Counted from the stretch's first letter, positions 54,345 to 64,000 are shown. The stretch is 64,000 bases of DNA from Synergistaceae bacterium (GCA_017450125.1 JAFSWZ010000040.1:62001-126000); one strand, 5' to 3'. Made by a program: numbers and translations. The notes: generated by a model not told the origin, from the letters alone.

Positions 54345-54380
54345 TCCCTCCTGCTGAAACGATGCGGGAGGGATTTATTT
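54345..54380 (+). terminator. Intrinsic terminator after mmdC
   Basis: TCCCTCCTGC pairs with GCGGGAGGGA, followed by TTTATTT. Its end touches the stop of the convergent restriction gene. Confidence 0.75.
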
Positions 54381-55175
54381 GGTCTGTGAAAGGCTGAGGT
54401 TTGTGCCTGTCGGGAACAGCTCTGCCCGTAGCTGAACGTATTCAGGGCGTGATGACAACAGCCGCTCGTACAAGTTCCTCTGTTCTGTCTTGAGCCGTAT
54501 CAATGCCAGCAGAATTTCCGAGCTGGTGTCAAAGTCTGGAATACTCAGCACTTCATCAGTACGATCAAGTTTGTTGCGAGCCAAATGACTACAGAGTTCT
54601 TCCCAGACATCCGGGCGTGCAAAAATCCCCGTGAATAATTCTCCATCATAAATGATGTGAATGGTTATGCCTGTGCCAGCTTCTGCCTCTGCACGTTCAA
54701 GGTAGTACTTCCTGTTCTTCCTGAGGCTGCCGTCAATGAACCACATAACCGCGTTGATTTCGCAGTCAGGGTGTTTCTCCTGCAATGCCAGATACTTTAA
54801 ACGGAAGTTGTCATACTGCCCGCGCTTCTTCGTGCTGTCGTGGTCATCACGAATCTTTTGCTCAATCAGGTAAACCGCTCTTCCTTTCCTGAAAAGCTGG
54901 TCTGCCTCGAGGTTATTCGATATGTGCTTATCAAGGTTCTCATAACCCATTTCGGATATATACCACGTGATTAAGTCTTCCATGAAGTCGCCGAACTTTA
55001 TTTCTCTGCTCTGCGTAACATTCTGGATTAGTTTTGTTTTGGCGTTGCTGACACGGAATATTCCCGTGTATCTCTGAGGATTCCTTATGACCGTTATAAG
55101 CAGTTCGTAGCAGAAATCATCATCAGACTTGATTTTAGCGTTAAGTTCATCAGCAAAGTCTTCGTAATTCTTCAT
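54375..55175 (-). CDS. HinfI-like type II restriction endonuclease
   Basis: 266 residues. The stretch VYLIEQKIRDDHDSTKKRGQ (about 101-120) has the E-x-K nuclease pair and the compact basic loop characteristic of this small endonuclease group; LLITVIRNPQRYTGIFRVSN and TKLIQNVTQSREIKFGDFME are well-ordered N-terminal parts. The divergent neighbour is clearly similar to M.HinfI (GANTC), so I infer the same target. Length agrees with R.HinfI (about 262). The -10 TATAAT ends nine bases before the ATG, so the message should be leaderless or nearly so. Confidence 0.8.
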   Translation of the reverse strand: MKNYEDFADELNAKIKSDDDFCYELLITVIRNPQRYTGIFRVSNAKTKLIQNVTQSREIKFGDFMEDLITWYISEMGYENLDKHISNNLEADQLFRKGRAVYLIEQKIRDDHDSTKKRGQYDNFRLKYLALQEKHPDCEINAVMWFIDGSLRKNRKYYLERAEAEAGTGITIHIIYDGELFTGIFARPDVWEELCSHLARNKLDRTDEVLSIPDFDTSSEILLALIRLKTEQRNLYERLLSSRPEYVQLRAELFPTGTNLSLSQTK

Positions 55176-55177
55176 GA

Positions 55178-55193
55178 TGCTAAAATTATAGCA
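55178..55193. promoter_or_regulatory. Extended -10 of the restriction gene inside a TGCTA/TAGCA inverted repeat
   Basis: TGCTA-AAATTA-TAGCA covers the minus-strand TGC TATAAT that drives the nuclease gene. The repeat could be an operator timing expression of nuclease after methylase. No separate controller gene is seen; the methylase itself is a possible binder. Confidence 0.5.
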
Positions 55194-55228
55194 ACACTTT
55201 CATTAATTTTACGAGGAGGTTTTCATTA

Positions 55229-56305
55229 ATGTGCGATACAATCATTAACGGCGAAACCATCAGCGAGATGCAACAGCTACCCGACCAGTACGTAGACCTG
55301 ATATTCGCCGACCCTCCTTACTTCATGCAGACCAGCGGCATCCTTAACAGACCCGAAGGCTCGGAGTTTCAGGGCTGCTCGGACGACTGGGACAAGTTCG
55401 CCTCCCTCGCGGACTACGCAGACTTCTCCAGAAAGTGGCTTGCAGAATGCCGCAGACTCCTCAAACCCTCCGGCTCAATCTGGGTCATAGGCTCTATGCA
55501 GTGCATCTACACTCTCGGAAGCGTAATGCAGGAGCTCGGTTTCTGGTTCATCAACGACATAATATGGCAGAAGTCAAACCCAGTCCCGAACTTCAGAGGT
55601 TCACGGCTCAACAACAGCCACGAGACTCTAATCTGGGCAGTCAGGGACAAGTTCTCCCGCTACACCTTCAACTACAAGACAGCCAAGCACCTCAACGGCG
55701 GAAAACAGCTTGGCTCAGTGTGGACGTTCCCTGTCTGTGCTGGAAGAGAGAGGCTCAAAGGCTCAGACGGGAAAAAGCTCCACAGCACCCAGAAGCCCCA
55801 AGCCCTGCTGGAACGCATAATCGCAATCTCATCACGTTTGGGGGATGTCGTGCTAGATCCTTTCGGCGGAACAATGACCACCGCGGCGGCGGCCAAGAAA
55901 CTCGGGCGCAGGTACATCATGATAGAGAGAGAGAAACTCTACTGCGAACACGGAGAAAGACGGCTCAATGCAGTAAGCTTTGAGGACTCGGAGATTGCCC
56001 GCGCAGACTTCGACCTCAAACCTATGCGCGTAACTCTGTCGGAGATGATTGACGCGGGAGCTTTCACTGTCGGAGAATCTTTCTGCCTCAAGGACGGGAC
56101 TCCGTGCGCACAGCTCAGAGAAGACGGAAAATTGATGTATCACGGTGAAGTTCTCGACATCCACACCTGCGCGGCACAGGCAAAGAATCTCAAGGCCTCG
56201 CGCGTCAACGGCTTCGACGTGTGGCACGTAATCAGAGACGGCGAAATTATCAGCATCTCGTCAATCCGCGAGGAACTAAGGGCATCCCTCACGCCAAATG
56301 CCTGA
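55229..56305 (+). CDS. HinfI/CcrM-like adenine methyltransferase (GANTC, inferred)
   Basis: 358 residues, like M.HinfI (359). Motif IV DPPYFMQTSGIL, then SGSIWVIGSMQCIY, FWFINDIIWQKSNPVPNFRG, HSTQKPQALLERI and motif I near VVLDPFGGTMTTAAAAKKLG, followed by the C-terminal RAMA-type domain (PMRVTLSEMIDAGAFTVGES). In M.HinfI and CcrM the motif I core reads DPFFGTGTT; here the second Gly of the FxGxG pattern is Met. This may weaken SAM binding or be tolerated. GAGGAGGT precedes the ATG. The gene protects DNA from the divergent nuclease; its end overlaps the AAA+ gene by 17 bases. Confidence 0.88.
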   Translation: MCDTIINGETISEMQQLPDQYVDLIFADPPYFMQTSGILNRPEGSEFQGCSDDWDKFASLADYADFSRKWLAECRRLLKPSGSIWVIGSMQCIYTLGSVMQELGFWFINDIIWQKSNPVPNFRGSRLNNSHETLIWAVRDKFSRYTFNYKTAKHLNGGKQLGSVWTFPVCAGRERLKGSDGKKLHSTQKPQALLERIIAISSRLGDVVLDPFGGTMTTAAAAKKLGRRYIMIEREKLYCEHGERRLNAVSFEDSEIARADFDLKPMRVTLSEMIDAGAFTVGESFCLKDGTPCAQLREDGKLMYHGEVLDIHTCAAQAKNLKASRVNGFDVWHVIRDGEIISISSIREELRASLTPNA

Positions 56306-57659
56306 CGCAGATACACCTGCTCCCTTCAGAATACGCTTTGTTCACAGCCTGCGACAGACAGAACCGCAATTCCCTGAAGTTTCCCGGAAAGTCCTTGCCC
56401 TCTATGTACTCTATCGCATCAAGGCTTATCCTCTCAGCTCTGCGCTTCCCGTCCGGCGAAGCAGGGTTAATCCTCGCATCCTGCAGCACCATGCTGATTA
56501 ACAGACGTATATCCTGCTTCCTCTCGCGCAGTGCAGGTATCTCTATCACGTGCTCAAACCTGTTCACTATGTCCTTCCTGAATGACGGATCGTGCCTAAC
56601 ATCCCTGTTCGTCGCGGCTATCAGTATGCACGGAACGCAAACCGGCCTGTCCATTCCGCGCGGCAGAACGTTTCCATTGTCCATGTATGTCAGAAGGCGC
56701 GTCTGAATCTCCGCATCCATGTCCCCAATCTCGTCCAGAAACACAACTTCACCGCAATGTTCTATGAATATTCCCAGCCTGTCAGTTATTGAGCCGGTGT
56801 ACGAACCTTTCACCGAACCGAACAGAACCGCATCAACAGAGTCTTTAGTGTAGGAGGCAATGTTTATCTTCGTAAGGGGACGGTTGTGCATTATCACGCT
56901 TGCGGCGGCTGTGGCAAGGAGAGTTTTTCCGCACCCTGTCTCTCCGAGTATCAGCATTGACGGCACGCGGGCATTTTTCCCGAAACCGAAGCCGGAGAGT
57001 TCCGAGAGACGCTCGGACATCGTGCTGCTCCTGAAGTGCTGCGAGCGTACCTTGCGGAGTTCGGGCGTGTCTATGTCGAGGACGGCATCCTTGTACCGCC
57101 GGGCCATCAGCTGCATTGACGGCGAAGAAAACAGGCTGACGAAATCAGTACTGCACCCAGAGTCCAGCTTTGCCTTCCAGTCTGTGGGCTTGGACAAATC
57201 TTCCTCGTGAAGCCCGGCCTTCTTCCTCAGCACCTGACGAAGAATCTTCTTGAACACTCCGGCAAATTCACCGAAGTCCTCAGGGTCTCTGCCCTCACCT
57301 AACAGCTTGGCCAGCCTGAAGACTCCCATAACGTTGAACACAGGGTTCATCAAGACATTGTTTATATCACTGCTCCAAACGTCGGAAGATAGGATTATCA
57401 GTGCTGGCACGGGCTGCATGGACTCTTTCTCGGCGGGACTTATCCACTTGAAGCTGTTGTGCGACGGGTCGCCTATTATCAGGTCTGCTTCCGTTATGTC
57501 CGACTTCCTGATTTTCCCGCTGAACGCAAAAAATTCCTGCTTCCCTCCGGCCTTCAGACCCTCCAGAATCTCACCCAGTAATGCCTTGAACTGTCGGCGT
57601 TCCTCAACCTGCGCGCTCATGTCATACGCGTAGCACACCCTCACATCAATATCATTCAT
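56289..57659 (-). CDS. AAA+ ATPase of the sigma54-activator class with altered GAFTGA loop
   Basis: 456 residues. An N-terminal domain of about 200 residues is unassigned (alpha/beta, ADLIIGDPSHNSFKWISPAE). The AAA+ core has Walker A GETGCGKT (239-246), the L1 loop GSVKGSYTGSITDRLGIF where GAFTGA is GSYTGS (285-290), Walker B VVFLDEIGD (305-313), arginine-finger segment NRFEHVIEIP and sensor II FPGNFRELR (424-432). It ends directly after the lid, with no Fis-type HTH. It is the last gene of the fused-RNA-polymerase operon and overlaps the gene before it by eight bases. It likely remodels a transcription complex; a role with sigma54 is doubtful. Confidence 0.88.
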   Translation of the reverse strand: MNDIDVRVCYAYDMSAQVEERRQFKALLGEILEGLKAGGKQEFFAFSGKIRKSDITEADLIIGDPSHNSFKWISPAEKESMQPVPALIILSSDVWSSDINNVLMNPVFNVMGVFRLAKLLGEGRDPEDFGEFAGVFKKILRQVLRKKAGLHEEDLSKPTDWKAKLDSGCSTDFVSLFSSPSMQLMARRYKDAVLDIDTPELRKVRSQHFRSSTMSERLSELSGFGFGKNARVPSMLILGETGCGKTLLATAAASVIMHNRPLTKINIASYTKDSVDAVLFGSVKGSYTGSITDRLGIFIEHCGEVVFLDEIGDMDAEIQTRLLTYMDNGNVLPRGMDRPVCVPCILIAATNRDVRHDPSFRKDIVNRFEHVIEIPALRERKQDIRLLISMVLQDARINPASPDGKRRAERISLDAIEYIEGKDFPGNFRELRFCLSQAVNKAYSEGSRCICVRHLA

Positions 57660-58530
57660 GACTGCCCTCCTGCTGTTTCTCGAGCCACTTCTTCCAGCCC
57701 CCGAGCCTCTTGCGCTGCATTACTGTCGGATCATCGTTGTACGAGAAATTTACGGTTTTGATGCCTAATCCCCGCCCGCGTGATTTCCTGCGGCCGTCGT
57801 CTTCTGCGTCGTCCTCGCGTCCGAAGTTCTTTGCGCAGAAAGTGTTGATATTGCGGGCAAACTCACGCAAGCCTTCAGGAAGCCATTTCTTGCAGTTCCG
57901 CCAGTCCAACGGATTCGGTTCGGGGTGATGCTCGAGCTCGCGGGACAGCCACAGATACTCCAAGTGTTCAGGCAGAGGGATTGAGCCTCCTTCCGGCTGT
58001 TTGCCCTTGCCCCTTCCCGCACGGAATTTCCCCAGCGGCAGAACCTGCCCCCCGCAGACTATTCCGACCGTCTTAAGGGTGTCCATCCATCCGCCGCCTT
58101 CATCATCCTGCGTGAAGAATCCCCGAAGGCTCAGCAGTAATTCTTCCGGCTTCCGGCCGGGAAACTCGCGCGACAAGAACCCCAGCAATAACTGAAGCCT
58201 TCTCCTGAGGTATTCGCGCGGAGGGAGCTTCGAGCTTGGCCGGTAGTACAGGGCTGACCACAATATCTGGTCTCCGCAAAGCATCCAGATCGGGATTACT
58301 GACTTGCGCCGGAAATCTTCATTGTCATTTCCGGTTTCGTCGTCAGAATGATATTCGTCCTCGTAGTCTGTCGGGTCTTCCGGCTCAAAATCTATGTCGT
58401 CCTCAGGGTCAAGTTCCGGCTGTTCAAGTGCTGTGTTGTCCGGCATGTAATCTGTCCCGCCGAACGATAAACGCTCAATGTTGCCGGTACGTTCGCGTTC
58501 TGTCTGTGAATGCGTAAGAATTTCCGGCAT
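57652..58530 (-). CDS. Unknown acidic protein encoded with the fused RNA polymerase
   Basis: 292 residues. The first 75 residues are strongly acidic (LDPEDDIDFEPEDPTDYEDE). The middle is helical and basic (YLRRRLQLLLGFLSREFPGR), with a Trp-rich part (DWRNCKKWLPEGLREFARNI) and a basic C-terminus (GRRKSRGRGLGIKTVNFSYN, KRLGGWKKWLEKQQ). I see no known domain. ATG 58530 overlaps the polymerase stop by one base and has GGAGGAG before it. An acidic N-terminus with basic RNA/DNA-binding-like tail would suit an initiation or sigma-like accessory factor; this is inference only. Confidence 0.75.
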   Translation of the reverse strand: MPEILTHSQTERERTGNIERLSFGGTDYMPDNTALEQPELDPEDDIDFEPEDPTDYEDEYHSDDETGNDNEDFRRKSVIPIWMLCGDQILWSALYYRPSSKLPPREYLRRRLQLLLGFLSREFPGRKPEELLLSLRGFFTQDDEGGGWMDTLKTVGIVCGGQVLPLGKFRAGRGKGKQPEGGSIPLPEHLEYLWLSRELEHHPEPNPLDWRNCKKWLPEGLREFARNINTFCAKNFGREDDAEDDGRRKSRGRGLGIKTVNFSYNDDPTVMQRKRLGGWKKWLEKQQEGSHE

Positions 58531-61500
58531 TACTCATCTCCTCCTTCCCACAGAAGACGGCTCTTTATGCCTGACAAGTCATCACTCTTCGCACCTTTGC
58601 GCAATGACCGCAGAAGCAGCGATACCCTCTCGCCCGCAAGTTCGGACAAGAACCCTGTATCCTGCTTTGTGTACGCCGCCTCAACCTCGAAATGTATAAG
58701 TGCCTGCTTCATGTTAGACGAACGGCAGAGAATAGCAGTGATTGTGTCGCTGAGAGTGTGCTTCTTCATCAGGACACCCTGCACCTGCTTCACCGTAACT
58801 TCATCCGGCGTGCTTCCTCCGACATCGTGAAATTTCTTCATTGCGAGCTGAGTGCCTCTCTCGCCGATTGCCTGTGCCGCAGTCAGCCCCGCCGCAAAAC
58901 CTTCACGCACCGGCCCTGGCCTTCTGTACGGCCTTCCTGCAACATCAGCACCGTAACACGCCGAGCACACGTGCCCTCTTCTGCGTTCCTTGCAGGTCAG
59001 CGGCGAACGAACTATCACGGTCTCCCCCGCCTTCAGCCTCTCGGTTACAGCCTCAACGTCAAGGCACTCACTCTCTCCGGCCAAGACTCTGCCCCACAAG
59101 ACGCGTGGAAAATCAGCTTCAGGCATTGCGACTCCGTCAACGTACAGCTTTCCGTCCTTGTACGAGACCTCAAGCCCCTTCTTTGTCCCGCAGTCAGGAA
59201 TGCTCACGGTGTATTCGTAGAGCTTTTCTGCTAGAAGACGGGAGAGATACCCAGCCTCAGCAACGGATAACTTCTTCTGTGCCATCGAGTAGCGCGACGG
59301 GTAGCTGTACATGAACAGTTCATCATCGCTCAAGCCCTCCCAGAGGTTACCGGCTATGTATTCCTTCTTGAAGCTGTCCTTGTCGTCAATGCTCAGCCCG
59401 TCCTTGTCCGTGTCGGGCTCGTCCTTCATCATGCTTATTTTGCCTATAGGGCTTGCCGTCCTCTCGCAGTCCATAGGGCTTAACGTCGCCGCACCGTAGG
59501 ACTCCCGCATCACTTGTGCCTGAAGCTCCTGCAGTGTTCTGCTCCTCTCCTCGAAGCTCAGAGGTGCTATATCGCTCAGTACTTCATCCAGGTGTTCAGA
59601 GAACTTCCCCGTACCCTTCCAGCCCAGCGCAATGTCTTTGCCGGAAGCCAGCGCAGGTTCGCCTGTTCCTACGAGACCGGGATTATTGATGACCGAGAAG
59701 GGGCGCAAGTCCTTAGCGTCGTCATACGGAGGCAGAAAGACAGCCATTGTGTCGCCGTCAAAGTCCGCGTTGAAGCCCGGCGTAACCATCGGAGGAATGC
59801 CTATTACTGGAAATTCCCAGCACCTTAACCTGAAGGACTGTACGCTGTGGCGGTGAAGGCTGGGCTGACGTATCATGAAGCACCACAGCTCCCCCTCAGC
59901 ACTTTTCAGGAACTCGTCAAACTCTCCCGCCAAGTTACGGGCTTCGTCTCTGCGTTCGTCGTAATCGTTGAAGATTCTTCTGAGCGCGTCAAAATCCCGT
60001 ACTCTCTCGGGAAGTCTGCATACATAGTTAAAACTGTAGCCGTCAAGAAGCTCGATTAACATTGCGGCTGGGATAAATGCTTCATGAAGCATCAATGACG
60101 GTTCAGGGACAATTACTGCTCTCCCTGAATGGTCATAACGCCGCCTAGCAAAATAACTTCTCGGCAGTCCGTTTTTGCCCGAAACAATCTTCATCAAACC
60201 TTCATGATAATCCGCGAGAGCTTTTGCCCTCCTGAAATCTGAACCGTTCATGCAGAACTGCAGGAGAAGCCTCGACATGTCCCAGCCCCTGATTATGTCG
60301 GGTTCAGCGTGAATGCTGCCGTCAGGGTTGAAGAAACACTCATCCTTCAGGACAGCGTCAAGCCTTCGTGCCGTGTGCCCGTCCTTGAGCCTGCTGCGTA
60401 TGTCTTCCGCCAATGCCCTGCACGAGATTTCACCGTCCTTCTTGCCGGATTTTATGCGTATGCAGAAGGGCTCGCTCCCATCACGGACTGATGCCCATTC
60501 CACCGGCTCGCGTTTGAGCCCCGCATCATCCTCATCATTGCGCGCACGGAACTCAAGCCCCGAGTCTGTCTCCGTCATGATTACGCCCAGAGAACGCAGG
60601 GTTTTTCTGAGGAGCTCCCGAGTCGTAGCGAAATTCCCGGTGTAATTCCTGCGCATGTCAGAGAGGATTTCTCCCGCACCATGACTCAGAAGAGACCAGT
60701 TCTCCATCTCGCCCATCCGCTGCCCGGTCAACGCTCCGCACTGCAGGGGCTGGCCGGTTAGAGAGCTGTACGGGACATCCCTTCCGCCGCGAGCCTGCAG
60801 CTTCTTCCACGCGTGATGGTGAAGACGGCAGAAGTACTGCCACCCCGCGAAAGCCTTTGTGTCTTCGTGCCCCTCACGCGTAACCTTGAACAGCCCGGAC
60901 TCGTCGCACCCTGTTTCCGCGAGAAACTCACCGAGACGTTCACGGAAGCCCGGTATTTTGTCAAGAGGCTCATTCTTTATGTCTATGTCCTCATCATCAA
61001 GAAACTCCTCCAGCTCCGCGCCACCTTTAAGTGCGAGCAGTGAATGTATCATCTCCCAGATCTGCCCGAGATTCTTTCGGCCAATCACCGACGCAGGAGA
61101 GATAATCAGCTCGGCGGGCAAAACTTCATCCTTGAAGTGAACATGAGGCATAAGCTCATCAGGAAGTATCTTCGTAACAACTCCCTTGTTGCCGTTCCTG
61201 CCGGTAAGTTTGTCGCCGAGCCCCATTCGCCGGACAACGCGGAAATTCCACGACACGGACAGTTCTGCTTCGTAGCTCTTTGCGTCCTTGTCGCTTCTGC
61301 CCGAGTCTCCTGTTATTGTGCACTTCACCTTCACGCTCTCGAGGATGCCGGGCGAGTGATGCCGGTATCTTTCCCGCCACTCCAGCTGCCTGCCGTCGCG
61401 GTAAAACTTCACGCGCGGTTCAGGGAGAAGGTCGCCGTAAATGCACTTTCTGCCCCCAGCGTCTCCGAACAGTCCGGCCAAGTCCTGAGCTTCAAGGTCA

Positions 61501-62600
61501 GTTATGCCAGCCTCCTCCAGCTCCTGCTTCATCAGCACAACGTCGAAGACGCGCGAATACCTGTAATGTCCTTCAGGGATGCACAGCCTTTCAGCGAGCG
61601 ATTCGGAGATGACTATTCCATCTTCGTACGTGTACCCGTCGAACGGCATAATCACCGTCAGAGCGTTCAAGCCGAGATAGGGGAAAAACCTTCCCGCCTT
61701 CTTGTTCCTGTTGAACACGGGAAAACCGCTCATCGCTTCGCCCTCATAACATCCCGGCACTATCGGGGCTTCTGCTCCAGCTGTTCCTGTTTCTGCCTGC
61801 TTCATGTTCTTGCCGCCCATCATGAGACGCGGGCCGTCCGTGTGGTTCGGGTAAGGTATCAGCCCCACAGCCGCAGAGAGCATAGCCCTTCCCGCGCGGA
61901 TTGTACCTTCACTTATCGAGGCATCGGCAGCAAGCGTGAGCTGAAGTCCTGTACGTTTGGACTCGGGAGTCTGGAAGGGGCATAACCTGTTTCTGTGCGA
62001 TTTATGCGGGATTCTGAGGCGGCCTAATGTTCTTGCGGGCCAGTCTATGAGAACCTGACGTTTGGCTTCGAGTTCAAGCAGAGGGTTAGCGTCCTCGCTT
62101 GGGGCATCCGGCGCAAAACCTGCGGACTTCCGTGCTCGTGCGCTGGTGAAAAACGCGTTCAGCCCTGCTTCAAGCCTAATGAAGTTATCGAGCGTGCATT
62201 CTCCTGATGCCTTGATGTCCTCCGCAAAACGTTTCCACTTCTCGCAGACATCACGAAGCCACGAAGACCCCGCGAAGCTGCCTTCAGCGTCAAGGTCAGG
62301 GGACAGATTCAGAGCATGATTGCCGGGCGCGAACTCGGGACGGCGGAAGATGCTTCCTGCGGTGTACGTCCTTCCGCTCAGTGCGTCCCTGACGATGCAC
62401 GAATTTCCGTCGCTCTCAGGCAGAAGCCACCGTAGCAGTAACTTATCCTCCGTGCCGTACTTGGCCGCAAGACCGGCGAACTCCTGCCCCGCAAGCTCAA
62501 GCACAAGAAGCGTACTCCCTCCGTCCGTCGAAAAACTAATCTCCCTTGCGTCAATACCTGATGCTTTCCGAACAACTGCTATAACCTCATCAATATTCAT
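58530..62600 (-). CDS. Single-chain RNA polymerase: fused beta and beta-prime halves
   Basis: 1356 residues. Beta-type half (about 190-675): RLCPFQTPESKRTGLQ (205-220), GLIPYPNHTDGPRLMMGGKN, VIMPFDGYTYEDGIVISES, GLGDKLTGRNGNKGVVTKI (460-478) with both catalytic-pocket Lys, NLGQIWEM, and GQPLQCGALTGQRMGEME (616-633). Beta-prime-type half (about 770-1265): RRRYDHSGRAVIVPEPSLML (819-838), RQPSLHRHSVQSF (911-923), NADFDGD metal site (944-950), GEPALASGKDIALG, bridge-helix-like AQKKLSVAEAGYLSRLLAEK (1107-1126), CSACYG, trigger-loop-like TAAQAIGERGTQLAMKKFHD (1240-1259). The beta-prime N-terminal zinc clamp is absent. About half the size of beta plus beta-prime, so an accessory enzyme. GGAGG precedes ATG 62600. 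Confidence 0.93.
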   Translation of the reverse strand: MNIDEVIAVVRKASGIDAREISFSTDGGSTLLVLELAGQEFAGLAAKYGTEDKLLLRWLLPESDGNSCIVRDALSGRTYTAGSIFRRPEFAPGNHALNLSPDLDAEGSFAGSSWLRDVCEKWKRFAEDIKASGECTLDNFIRLEAGLNAFFTSARARKSAGFAPDAPSEDANPLLELEAKRQVLIDWPARTLGRLRIPHKSHRNRLCPFQTPESKRTGLQLTLAADASISEGTIRAGRAMLSAAVGLIPYPNHTDGPRLMMGGKNMKQAETGTAGAEAPIVPGCYEGEAMSGFPVFNRNKKAGRFFPYLGLNALTVIMPFDGYTYEDGIVISESLAERLCIPEGHYRYSRVFDVVLMKQELEEAGITDLEAQDLAGLFGDAGGRKCIYGDLLPEPRVKFYRDGRQLEWRERYRHHSPGILESVKVKCTITGDSGRSDKDAKSYEAELSVSWNFRVVRRMGLGDKLTGRNGNKGVVTKILPDELMPHVHFKDEVLPAELIISPASVIGRKNLGQIWEMIHSLLALKGGAELEEFLDDEDIDIKNEPLDKIPGFRERLGEFLAETGCDESGLFKVTREGHEDTKAFAGWQYFCRLHHHAWKKLQARGGRDVPYSSLTGQPLQCGALTGQRMGEMENWSLLSHGAGEILSDMRRNYTGNFATTRELLRKTLRSLGVIMTETDSGLEFRARNDEDDAGLKREPVEWASVRDGSEPFCIRIKSGKKDGEISCRALAEDIRSRLKDGHTARRLDAVLKDECFFNPDGSIHAEPDIIRGWDMSRLLLQFCMNGSDFRRAKALADYHEGLMKIVSGKNGLPRSYFARRRYDHSGRAVIVPEPSLMLHEAFIPAAMLIELLDGYSFNYVCRLPERVRDFDALRRIFNDYDERRDEARNLAGEFDEFLKSAEGELWCFMIRQPSLHRHSVQSFRLRCWEFPVIGIPPMVTPGFNADFDGDTMAVFLPPYDDAKDLRPFSVINNPGLVGTGEPALASGKDIALGWKGTGKFSEHLDEVLSDIAPLSFEERSRTLQELQAQVMRESYGAATLSPMDCERTASPIGKISMMKDEPDTDKDGLSIDDKDSFKKEYIAGNLWEGLSDDELFMYSYPSRYSMAQKKLSVAEAGYLSRLLAEKLYEYTVSIPDCGTKKGLEVSYKDGKLYVDGVAMPEADFPRVLWGRVLAGESECLDVEAVTERLKAGETVIVRSPLTCKERRRGHVCSACYGADVAGRPYRRPGPVREGFAAGLTAAQAIGERGTQLAMKKFHDVGGSTPDEVTVKQVQGVLMKKHTLSDTITAILCRSSNMKQALIHFEVEAAYTKQDTGFLSELAGERVSLLLRSLRKGAKSDDLSGIKSRLLWEGGDE

Positions 62601-63994
62601 GCTCTGCCTCCTACAGGTTCTGCGAGAAACTCAGGGAAGCCCCGCAGTACTTCTTTCACCGCCTCGTACTCCTTTCTGATGTCATCAGATATGCTCAAAG
62701 CTGCTTCTGTGTAACCATCTACTTCATCATTCGGAAAAACGTTAATAGTGATTGTGTTATCTTTCTCATTCATTGAAGGCAGGACGAACCTTATGCACTT
62801 GTGCTTGCTGAAATGATTATGCTGCTCTTTCTTGAACGCAAGACGATTCGCGAGGGACAACGCCATAAATTTAGGGAGTGCCTCAGCCTGTACCTTCCTC
62901 CATGTACGATGCTCCTCCTTAAGTTCCGTCAATCCCGCAAACACATCCTCATAAATCCCGCTGATTTCTCCTTCTGCGTCGAGCACCCTGATTTTCTCCC
63001 TGAGTCCGGCGGGCAGAAAACGCATGAACCCTTCAAGCTCAGCGCGTACCATTCTTGCTTCGTCAGCACTCCGTTTGTTCCTGTAGTCCAGATACTCGGG
63101 GCTTATGACTCTGTCTGACTGAACGTCGCACCCGTCAAGAATCCTGAGCAGTGCCGTAACCCACAGTAGCTTCTGCACGTCCTCCGCACCTTCTGCTCTG
63201 TCCTGAAGAGGCCTCAAAGTCTCCGTGAACTTCTCCTCTCCGAACAGCAGATAACCAGCCTGAACTATGCGCTTCTTCGGGGACGATGTTTCGCCGCCCG
63301 CGAGCACGGTGTAGCCTCTGTGATGCGCGGCAATGAGGGGCACGAAACGTTCAAGGACTTCACGCTTCGGGTTTCTCTCTCCGAAGTAACGTTCTGGAGT
63401 TCTCCCCAAAACTTCACCCGTCAGAAGGTGATGGAGCTCTCTCACTGCTGAGGGGAACAGTCCGAGCGGGAAGATGTCTGCGCGTTCAATGCTGTCATCA
63501 GGAGCTAGAACTGGATAAGACAGCGCGGTGTGTCCTATGTCGTGAAGGTATATCGACGCTATGAGCAGGGCTAAGGGCTTCGGGTCATCGCGTGTGAAAC
63601 CTATATCCTGCATTCTGTCTCCTGCACAGCGGAAAAGGCTTGCGGCGAGTTCCATTAGACGCTTTGAGTGCCGACGGCTGTGCTCTACTGTTTCGGGTAT
63701 CTGGTCTCCTAGCCAGAGATTGGCCCAGTTCTTCACCAAAAGATTTTGGAGGTAGTCTGCCCATTCGTCTCCGTCCCGGCATTCACGCAGACGGTTGAAG
63801 AGGTATTCTCCTGTGCCGTAGGGTTTTACGCGGGCTTGATTGTAGCTGTCGAGGAGTGCTCCGGCTAACTGCTTGGAGTCCTTTACCCACTGCGGGAGTG
63901 CCTCTGTGTTGGGGGCGGCGTTGCTGTGAATGGCTTTGAGCATGTTGATTTCCTCGTCCATTCTGGCATAGGCATAACCCAGAGGGAGGCTCAT
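62597..63994 (-). CDS. HD-domain phosphohydrolase-like protein, first visible gene of the RNA polymerase operon
   Basis: 465 residues if ATG 63994 is used; only six bases remain before the window edge, so the gene may begin further right. His105, the HD pair His151-Asp152 in ASIYLHDIGHTALSYPVL, a His pair in LIAAHHRGYT and the late Asp in RILDGCDVQSDRV give the HD superfamily metal site. Such proteins hydrolyse nucleotides or cyclic nucleotides. A C-terminal region (about 360-465) with FLPSMNEKDNTITINVFPND is unassigned. Its stop overlaps the polymerase start (ATGA), so the two are made together. Confidence 0.83.
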   Translation of the reverse strand: MSLPLGYAYARMDEEINMLKAIHSNAAPNTEALPQWVKDSKQLAGALLDSYNQARVKPYGTGEYLFNRLRECRDGDEWADYLQNLLVKNWANLWLGDQIPETVEHSRRHSKRLMELAASLFRCAGDRMQDIGFTRDDPKPLALLIASIYLHDIGHTALSYPVLAPDDSIERADIFPLGLFPSAVRELHHLLTGEVLGRTPERYFGERNPKREVLERFVPLIAAHHRGYTVLAGGETSSPKKRIVQAGYLLFGEEKFTETLRPLQDRAEGAEDVQKLLWVTALLRILDGCDVQSDRVISPEYLDYRNKRSADEARMVRAELEGFMRFLPAGLREKIRVLDAEGEISGIYEDVFAGLTELKEEHRTWRKVQAEALPKFMALSLANRLAFKKEQHNHFSKHKCIRFVLPSMNEKDNTITINVFPNDEVDGYTEAALSISDDIRKEYEAVKEVLRGFPEFLAEPVGGRA

Positions 63995-64000
63995 AACCTC

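Follow-up and report, generated by a model that had tools for sequence, protein, structure and literature searches.

A compact single-chain beta/beta-prime RNA polymerase encoded beside a type III-B CRISPR locus in Synergistota

The locus described here raises the question of what a small RNA polymerase, with its beta-like and beta-prime-like parts joined in one chain, might do beside a type III-B CRISPR system. The window, by which we mean the whole 64,000-nucleotide stretch that was analysed, lies on contig C40 (62001-126000) of a 2.16-Mb Synergistaceae genome assembled in 43 contigs. An initial annotation had described in it a compact beta/beta-prime fusion of 1356 residues, and this is borne out by an intact open reading frame with an ATG start, 1356 codons and no internal stops, and by five collinear Pfam matches to Rpb2_3 (3e-4), Rpb2_6 (1.5e-27), Rpb2_7 (3.6e-5), Rpb1_2 (4.5e-16) and Rpb1_5 (5.6e-13), four of which are above cut-off with Rpb2_7 below its own. 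The landmark motifs that it quoted are all present in this frame (CPFQTPE, GYTYEDGIVISE, GLGDKLTGRNGNKGVV, GQRMGEME, RYDHSGRAVIV, RQPSLHRHSVQSF, NADFDGD and QLAMKKFH), and sequence matches in the PDB reach 2e-38 for bacterial beta-prime and 3e-30 for beta. The gene and its recognisable parts are as follows.

58530..62600, minus strand: single-chain beta/beta-prime RNA polymerase, 1356 aa (open reading frame, Pfam, PDB sequence matches, E. coli mapping, dN/dS)
60630..62102, minus strand: beta-like half with the first double-psi barrel, residues ~167-657, corresponding to E. coli beta ~514-1298 (Pfam, mapping, structure)
61185..61211, minus strand: catalytic-region lysines K464 and K472, corresponding to E. 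coli beta K1065 and K1073
58800..60245, minus strand: beta-prime-like half with the second barrel, bridge helix, zinc site 2 and trigger loop, residues ~786-1267
59751..59771, minus strand: NADFDGD metal-binding Asp triad, residues 944-950
58956..59192, minus strand: second beta-prime zinc site, Cys 1137/1203/1212/1215, corresponding to E. coli C814/888/895/898, four of four kept
58761..58865, minus strand: trigger-loop-like segment (GERGTQLAMKKFHDVGG...), residues 1246-1280

Mapping onto the E. coli enzyme confirms that the metal-binding aspartates and the beta lysines are kept, as had been claimed. E. coli beta-prime D460, D462 and D464 correspond to D946, D948 and D950, beta E813/D814 to E326/D327, and the trigger-loop residues Q929, M932 and H936 to Q1251, M1254 and H1258; both the bridge helix and the trigger loop are present, with residues 1072-1153 and 1174-1267 aligning to E. 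coli. The mapped active-site and zinc positions are invariant in all 11 aligned family members (the window polymerase and ten orthologues at 35-59% identity to it), and the active site is, as read from these residues, intact. Orthologue pairs give dN/dS values of 0.12-0.29, from which we conclude that the polymerase is under purifying selection. Structure prediction, which the initial annotation had suggested as a check, yields a model of residues 157-1356 with a mean pLDDT of 59, with much of both barrel regions at 70-90, and this model matches bacterial beta and beta-prime (best Foldseek E 9e-17; VIA-align Z 14.4). Two double-psi barrels with the metal-binding DxDxD and the beta lysines are thus found in the sequence, and the fold match of the barrel regions agrees. 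The single-chain protein is a multisubunit-type polymerase, chance resemblance being excluded, and it would be expected to synthesise RNA, probably with DNA as template. Because canonical full-size rpoB and rpoC are encoded elsewhere in the source genome, it is a second polymerase, which upholds its designation as an accessory enzyme and removes the alternative that it is the sole polymerase of the cell.

The enzyme is reduced in ways that bear on how it might start transcription. The first ~500 residues of E. coli beta are represented by ~150 poorly alignable residues, and, as judged by alignment and not from the model (mean pLDDT as above), nothing corresponds to beta-prime zinc domain 1 (C70-C88), to SI3 or to most of the jaw. 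The same is true of the clamp coiled coil (E. coli beta-prime about 260-309), within which 275-298 is unmatched. The spacing between GQRxGEMENW and RxDHSGRAVIV is 185 residues in the window polymerase and 185-308 across the family, compared with 411 in E. coli, and there is no CxC or CxxC between these two motifs; the loss of the clamp zinc domain, an earlier proposal, therefore stands, and extends to the coiled coil. Sigma region 2 docks mainly on the clamp coiled coil, and because this element is missing, use of ordinary sigma factors by this polymerase seems unlikely.

Phylogenetically, the family members form one clade with 100% support, outside both the Synergistota rpoBC and the sampled phage groups, which leads us to reject a recent copy of the host rpoBC as their source. 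A close phage or plasmid source was likewise sought and none was found, identity being about 33% at most, or 38% in viral contigs, and the viral relatives are all distant (24-38% identity). The trees are unrooted, with long branches and without archaeal or eukaryotic outgroups, so that an ancient origin and a fast-evolving one are not separable in them. Several other arrangements were seen among the sequences collected. Viral contigs L075, L083 and L091 encode full-size fused beta/beta-prime proteins of 2276-2328 aa, phages Arash and D69 (L058, L061) have beta fused to the N-terminal part of beta-prime (1525-1545 aa), and Clostridioides difficile plasmid records of 97-150 kb (NZ_CP149712.1 and others, H32-H43) carry rpoB and rpoC.

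The polymerase gene is the second of four in an operon with the order CARF7-HD, polymerase, 292-aa protein and AAA+ ATPase, in which successive genes overlap by 4, 1 and 8 bases and a GGAGG-like ribosome site precedes every gene. Its other members are these.

62597..64000 and on past the window edge (full gene L003:12597-14636), minus strand: CARF7-HD, 679 aa (PADLOC CARF7--CARF_HD, E 1.2e-196)
57652..58530, minus strand: 292-aa protein of a ~300-aa family, with an acidic low-confidence N-terminus followed by a conserved, Trp-containing folded part
56289..57659, minus strand: bEBP-like AAA+ ATPase, 456 aa, with Walker A and B, no C-terminal HTH, and GSYTGS in place of GAFTGA

CARF7-HD keeps its GTS motif and the histidines and aspartates of the HD domain in 11 of 11 aligned members, and is predicted to be a cyclic-oligoadenylate sensor joined to an HD hydrolase. 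The CARF7 group takes in the ring nuclease Crn1 (PMC12409355), and CARF7-HD may therefore act to end the signal instead of passing it on. The operon is adjoined by a type III-B cas locus that starts just outside the window; past CARF7-HD, and oppositely oriented, come a CRISPR array, a reverse transcriptase, cas6, CARF-RelE, cmr1, cas10, cmr3, cmr4, cmr6, a second array and cas1. The CARF7-HD and CARF-RelE (Cami1) genes are intact at this locus, and Cas10 has GGDD both here and at the 8 of 8 other loci examined. Upstream of CARF-HD (L003:14637-14936) is a short conserved box resembling TGTARAATA, a -10-like sequence, which is also present in genome G082, where no polymerase was found; since the box is housekeeping-like and shared with a genome that has no polymerase, we recognise no dedicated operon promoter.

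The neighbourhood has further features of its own. Just downstream of the AAA+ gene, at window positions 54375-56305, an HpyAIV-family type II restriction enzyme (minus strand) stands beside a CcrM-like methyltransferase (plus strand), and the two are likely a GANTC restriction-modification pair. Past the window, between cmr6 and cas1, L004:4881-7238 holds a 785-aa open reading frame combining RNase H, Prok-JAB and ThiF (E1-like) domains, with relatives in L038 and L054 of other carriers. The reverse transcriptase (L003:15421-16527) is a stand-alone one, and its mechanically assigned start falls within the CRISPR array.

The initial annotation had placed the enzyme in Synergistota and recommended a search for the same operon in other genomes. 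Close orthologues of the polymerase do occur in this phylum, in 17 of the 188 Synergistota genomes searched (the copy in G020 being a contig-edge fragment), and the module is found with them. The 292-aa gene is present in exactly these 17 and in no other of the 188, and the AAA+ N-terminal domain in 16 of them and no others, the contig ending in the one exception (G057); none of the three genes occurs alone among the 188 genomes. In each of the 15 carriers with contig coverage on that side, CARF-HD is the nearest upstream homologous gene, with a gap between it and the polymerase in G108 and G111. The gap in G108 holds a 152-aa CYTH-like gene (L035:12956-13414; a motif reading, with no Pfam hit), and we note that PADLOC includes a CARF-CYTH-HD protein; the same genome has vWA-like and PP2C-like genes, read by eye, between AAA+ and cmr1 (L035:1380-5360). 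The cmr4 gene is found in 14 of the 17 carriers, and the other three are two highly fragmented assemblies and G047, whose contig runs out beyond CARF-RelE; the cmr4 of Fretibacterium is ~33 kb away. Linkage to cmr and cas10, as for a type III-B ancillary unit, is consistent. Four genomes (G032, G115, G117 and G118) have CARF7-HD and cmr without the polymerase, which indicates that the polymerase is an add-on and not essential to signalling. The polymerase, the 292-aa protein and the AAA+ ATPase thus make up a set of three genes that can be added to or lost from a CARF-HD type III-B system. Separate HD genes that correspond to the HD part of CARF-HD, and have no CARF, were seen away from cmr at L187:7361-8743, L188:9642-11015 and L189:1409-2791. 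A single contig search across genomes, reaching beyond Synergistota, returned Synergistota only. The CRISPR linkage of the module is strong, and its function is a matter of inference.

The two partners of the polymerase offer the main clues to that function. The AAA+ core is similar to those of sigma-54 activators, best to RtcR and NorR, with 33% identity to E. coli RtcR. A C-terminal HTH is absent from all 13 AAA+ orthologues, each of which stops at the lid domain, and the GAFTGA loop is altered to GSYTGS, GSYTSS, GSYTDA, GAYSGM and others. The N-terminal domain is conserved among the orthologues and without known relatives; a CARF domain there would have explained direct control by ligand, and was rejected when hhalign against the E. 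coli RtcR CARF and CARF7 gave a probability of 0.2%. Sigma-54 (PF04552) is absent from nine of the 17 carriers, the source genome included, and PF04963 is likewise absent from those nine; sigma-54 is present in the other eight carriers, and the same search was positive in 43 other or sister Synergistota genomes. In the nine carriers that have no sigma-54, the AAA+ protein cannot be a sigma-54 activator, and the co-encoded polymerase would be the obvious candidate for its target. The 292-aa protein evolves fast (mean column identity 27%) and is constrained, with dN/dS of 0.2-0.3 where measurable. Its AlphaFold model has a mean confidence of 70.5 overall, with blocks above 90 in the folded part and very low confidence at the N-terminus, and no significant match was found in Pfam, PHROGs, the PDB (by sequence or structure) or viral structures; because it has no recognisable fold, any role assigned to it is a guess.

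The reading that we lean towards, with a little better than even confidence, is that of a machine for transcription without sigma factors, linked to CRISPR signalling: a reduced polymerase, its active site intact, would form the centre of a three-gene module working with CARF7-HD and type III-B. In such a scheme, Cas10 would sense foreign RNA and produce cyclic oligoadenylate, CARF7-HD would read or remove this signal, and the AAA+ ATPase and the 292-aa protein would load the polymerase and open the DNA, in place of sigma factors and sigma-54 activators. The RNA made by the polymerase might then serve immunity, for example from the cas genes or CRISPR arrays, at a time when the host polymerase is under phage control. 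Within this scheme, the response to cyclic oligoadenylate, what the AAA+ and 292-aa proteins do and which genes are targeted are each conjectural. The more specific proposal of a private immunity transcription system, a CRISPR-signalled polymerase that initiates with its own AAA+ protein and a new cofactor and with neither sigma70 nor sigma54, is one that we advance tentatively and think rather more probably wrong than right.

Other readings are all less likely. The polymerase could be a domesticated phage or plasmid enzyme that has come to rest in a defence island and plays no part in CRISPR immunity, and related, sometimes fused, polymerases in phages and the richness of the region in defence genes are consistent with this; however, no phage or plasmid relative is closer than the values given above, and the module adjoins CARF-HD at every judgeable locus across lineages that are only 35-60% identical, and we consider a mere passenger unlikely. 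Type III-B senses RNA, and the polymerase resembles the double-psi-barrel RNA-dependent polymerases of RNA interference in its single-chain layout, which raises the idea that it copies target RNA or crRNA, either boosting the type III signal or feeding the reverse transcriptase for spacer uptake. The presence of a reverse transcriptase and cas1 in this type III-B locus and the loss of the sigma-binding and clamp elements fit such an amplifier, although the sequence is near to DNA-dependent bacterial enzymes and keeps the bridge helix, trigger loop and zinc site 2, and a bEBP-like AAA+ partner is better suited to opening promoter DNA; RNA-templated amplification is on balance quite unlikely.

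Toxicity is also to be considered, since the usual type III ancillary protein is a toxic effector (PMC11229360) and the polymerase shares an operon with a CARF protein. Once switched on, it could make RNA without restraint, draining NTPs or yielding toxic RNA or R-loops so that growth stops, but CARF-RelE and CARF-HD are already at the locus and a 1356-aa polymerase with a dedicated AAA+ protein is costly for a simple poison, which makes this decidedly improbable. Least credible, to the point that we give it hardly any weight, is that the polymerase acts by itself and the AAA+ protein is simply a conventional sigma-54 activator for the operon: its similarity to RtcR and NorR speaks for this, and the missing HTH, the altered GAFTGA loop and the nine carriers in which a sigma-54 gene is absent speak against it.

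If the private immunity transcription system is real, it would add a third way for bacteria to initiate transcription, and no RNA polymerase before it would have belonged to a CRISPR system. The known CRISPR ancillary proteins cut, block or degrade, and we know of none that makes RNA. A second polymerase tied to type III would, if active, show how a cell could keep transcribing once a phage has seized the main polymerase, and its constant co-inheritance with two partners beside type III-B suggests, at the level of gene content, that it may be a private machine for defence transcription. The pairing of a polymerase that lacks the sigma dock with a sigma-54-activator-like ATPase, where sigma-54 is absent, would make ATP-driven initiation testable outside the sigma-54 system, and an active enzyme of this kind would offer structural and engineering work a natural, small form of the cellular polymerase in one chain.

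The enzyme and its partners can be compared with several known systems. Bacterial RpoB/RpoC and the fused Helicobacter RpoBC share with it the barrels, the Asp triad, the beta lysines, the bridge helix, the trigger loop and zinc site 2; it differs from them in being about half the size, in its mostly reduced beta lobes, in lacking zinc domain 1, the clamp coiled coil, SI3 and most of the jaw, and in forming a separate long branch that does not nest within Synergistota rpoBC. YonO-type phage polymerases are similar in having one chain, both barrels and the Asp triad, but in YonO the detectable similarity stops at the barrel residues and a trigger loop is absent (PMC5467207), whereas the present polymerase has a trigger loop and a bridge helix and aligns readily to cellular RNA polymerases. 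The kinship to YonO that had been suggested is thus not supported, and the initial interpretation holds in part; its plasmid- or phage-type framing, after ORF6 or YonO, also missed the four-gene operon and the adjoining type III-B CRISPR context. Phage multisubunit polymerases (mReC Caudovirales, PMC7481178; YerA41, Carin-5, Vibrio D69 and IMG/VR contigs) are divergent relatives, some of them fused, that fall in separate tree clades; no CARF, AAA+ or 292-aa partner was noted for them, and CARF-HD was not found in viral contigs. The AAA+ protein has the core of RtcR and other bEBPs with its Walker A and B motifs, but differs from them in the missing HTH, the altered GAFTGA and an N-terminal domain unrelated to the RtcR CARF. 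The polymerase module is missing from the type III ancillary surveys PMC12669027 and PMC11229360, and we found no published description of a CRISPR-linked polymerase in a search that left out key earlier surveys, so that an earlier mention is possible. Genes for the type III ancillary proteins CARF7-HD and Cami1 (CARF-RelE) are present here, and it is the polymerase module that sets this locus apart.
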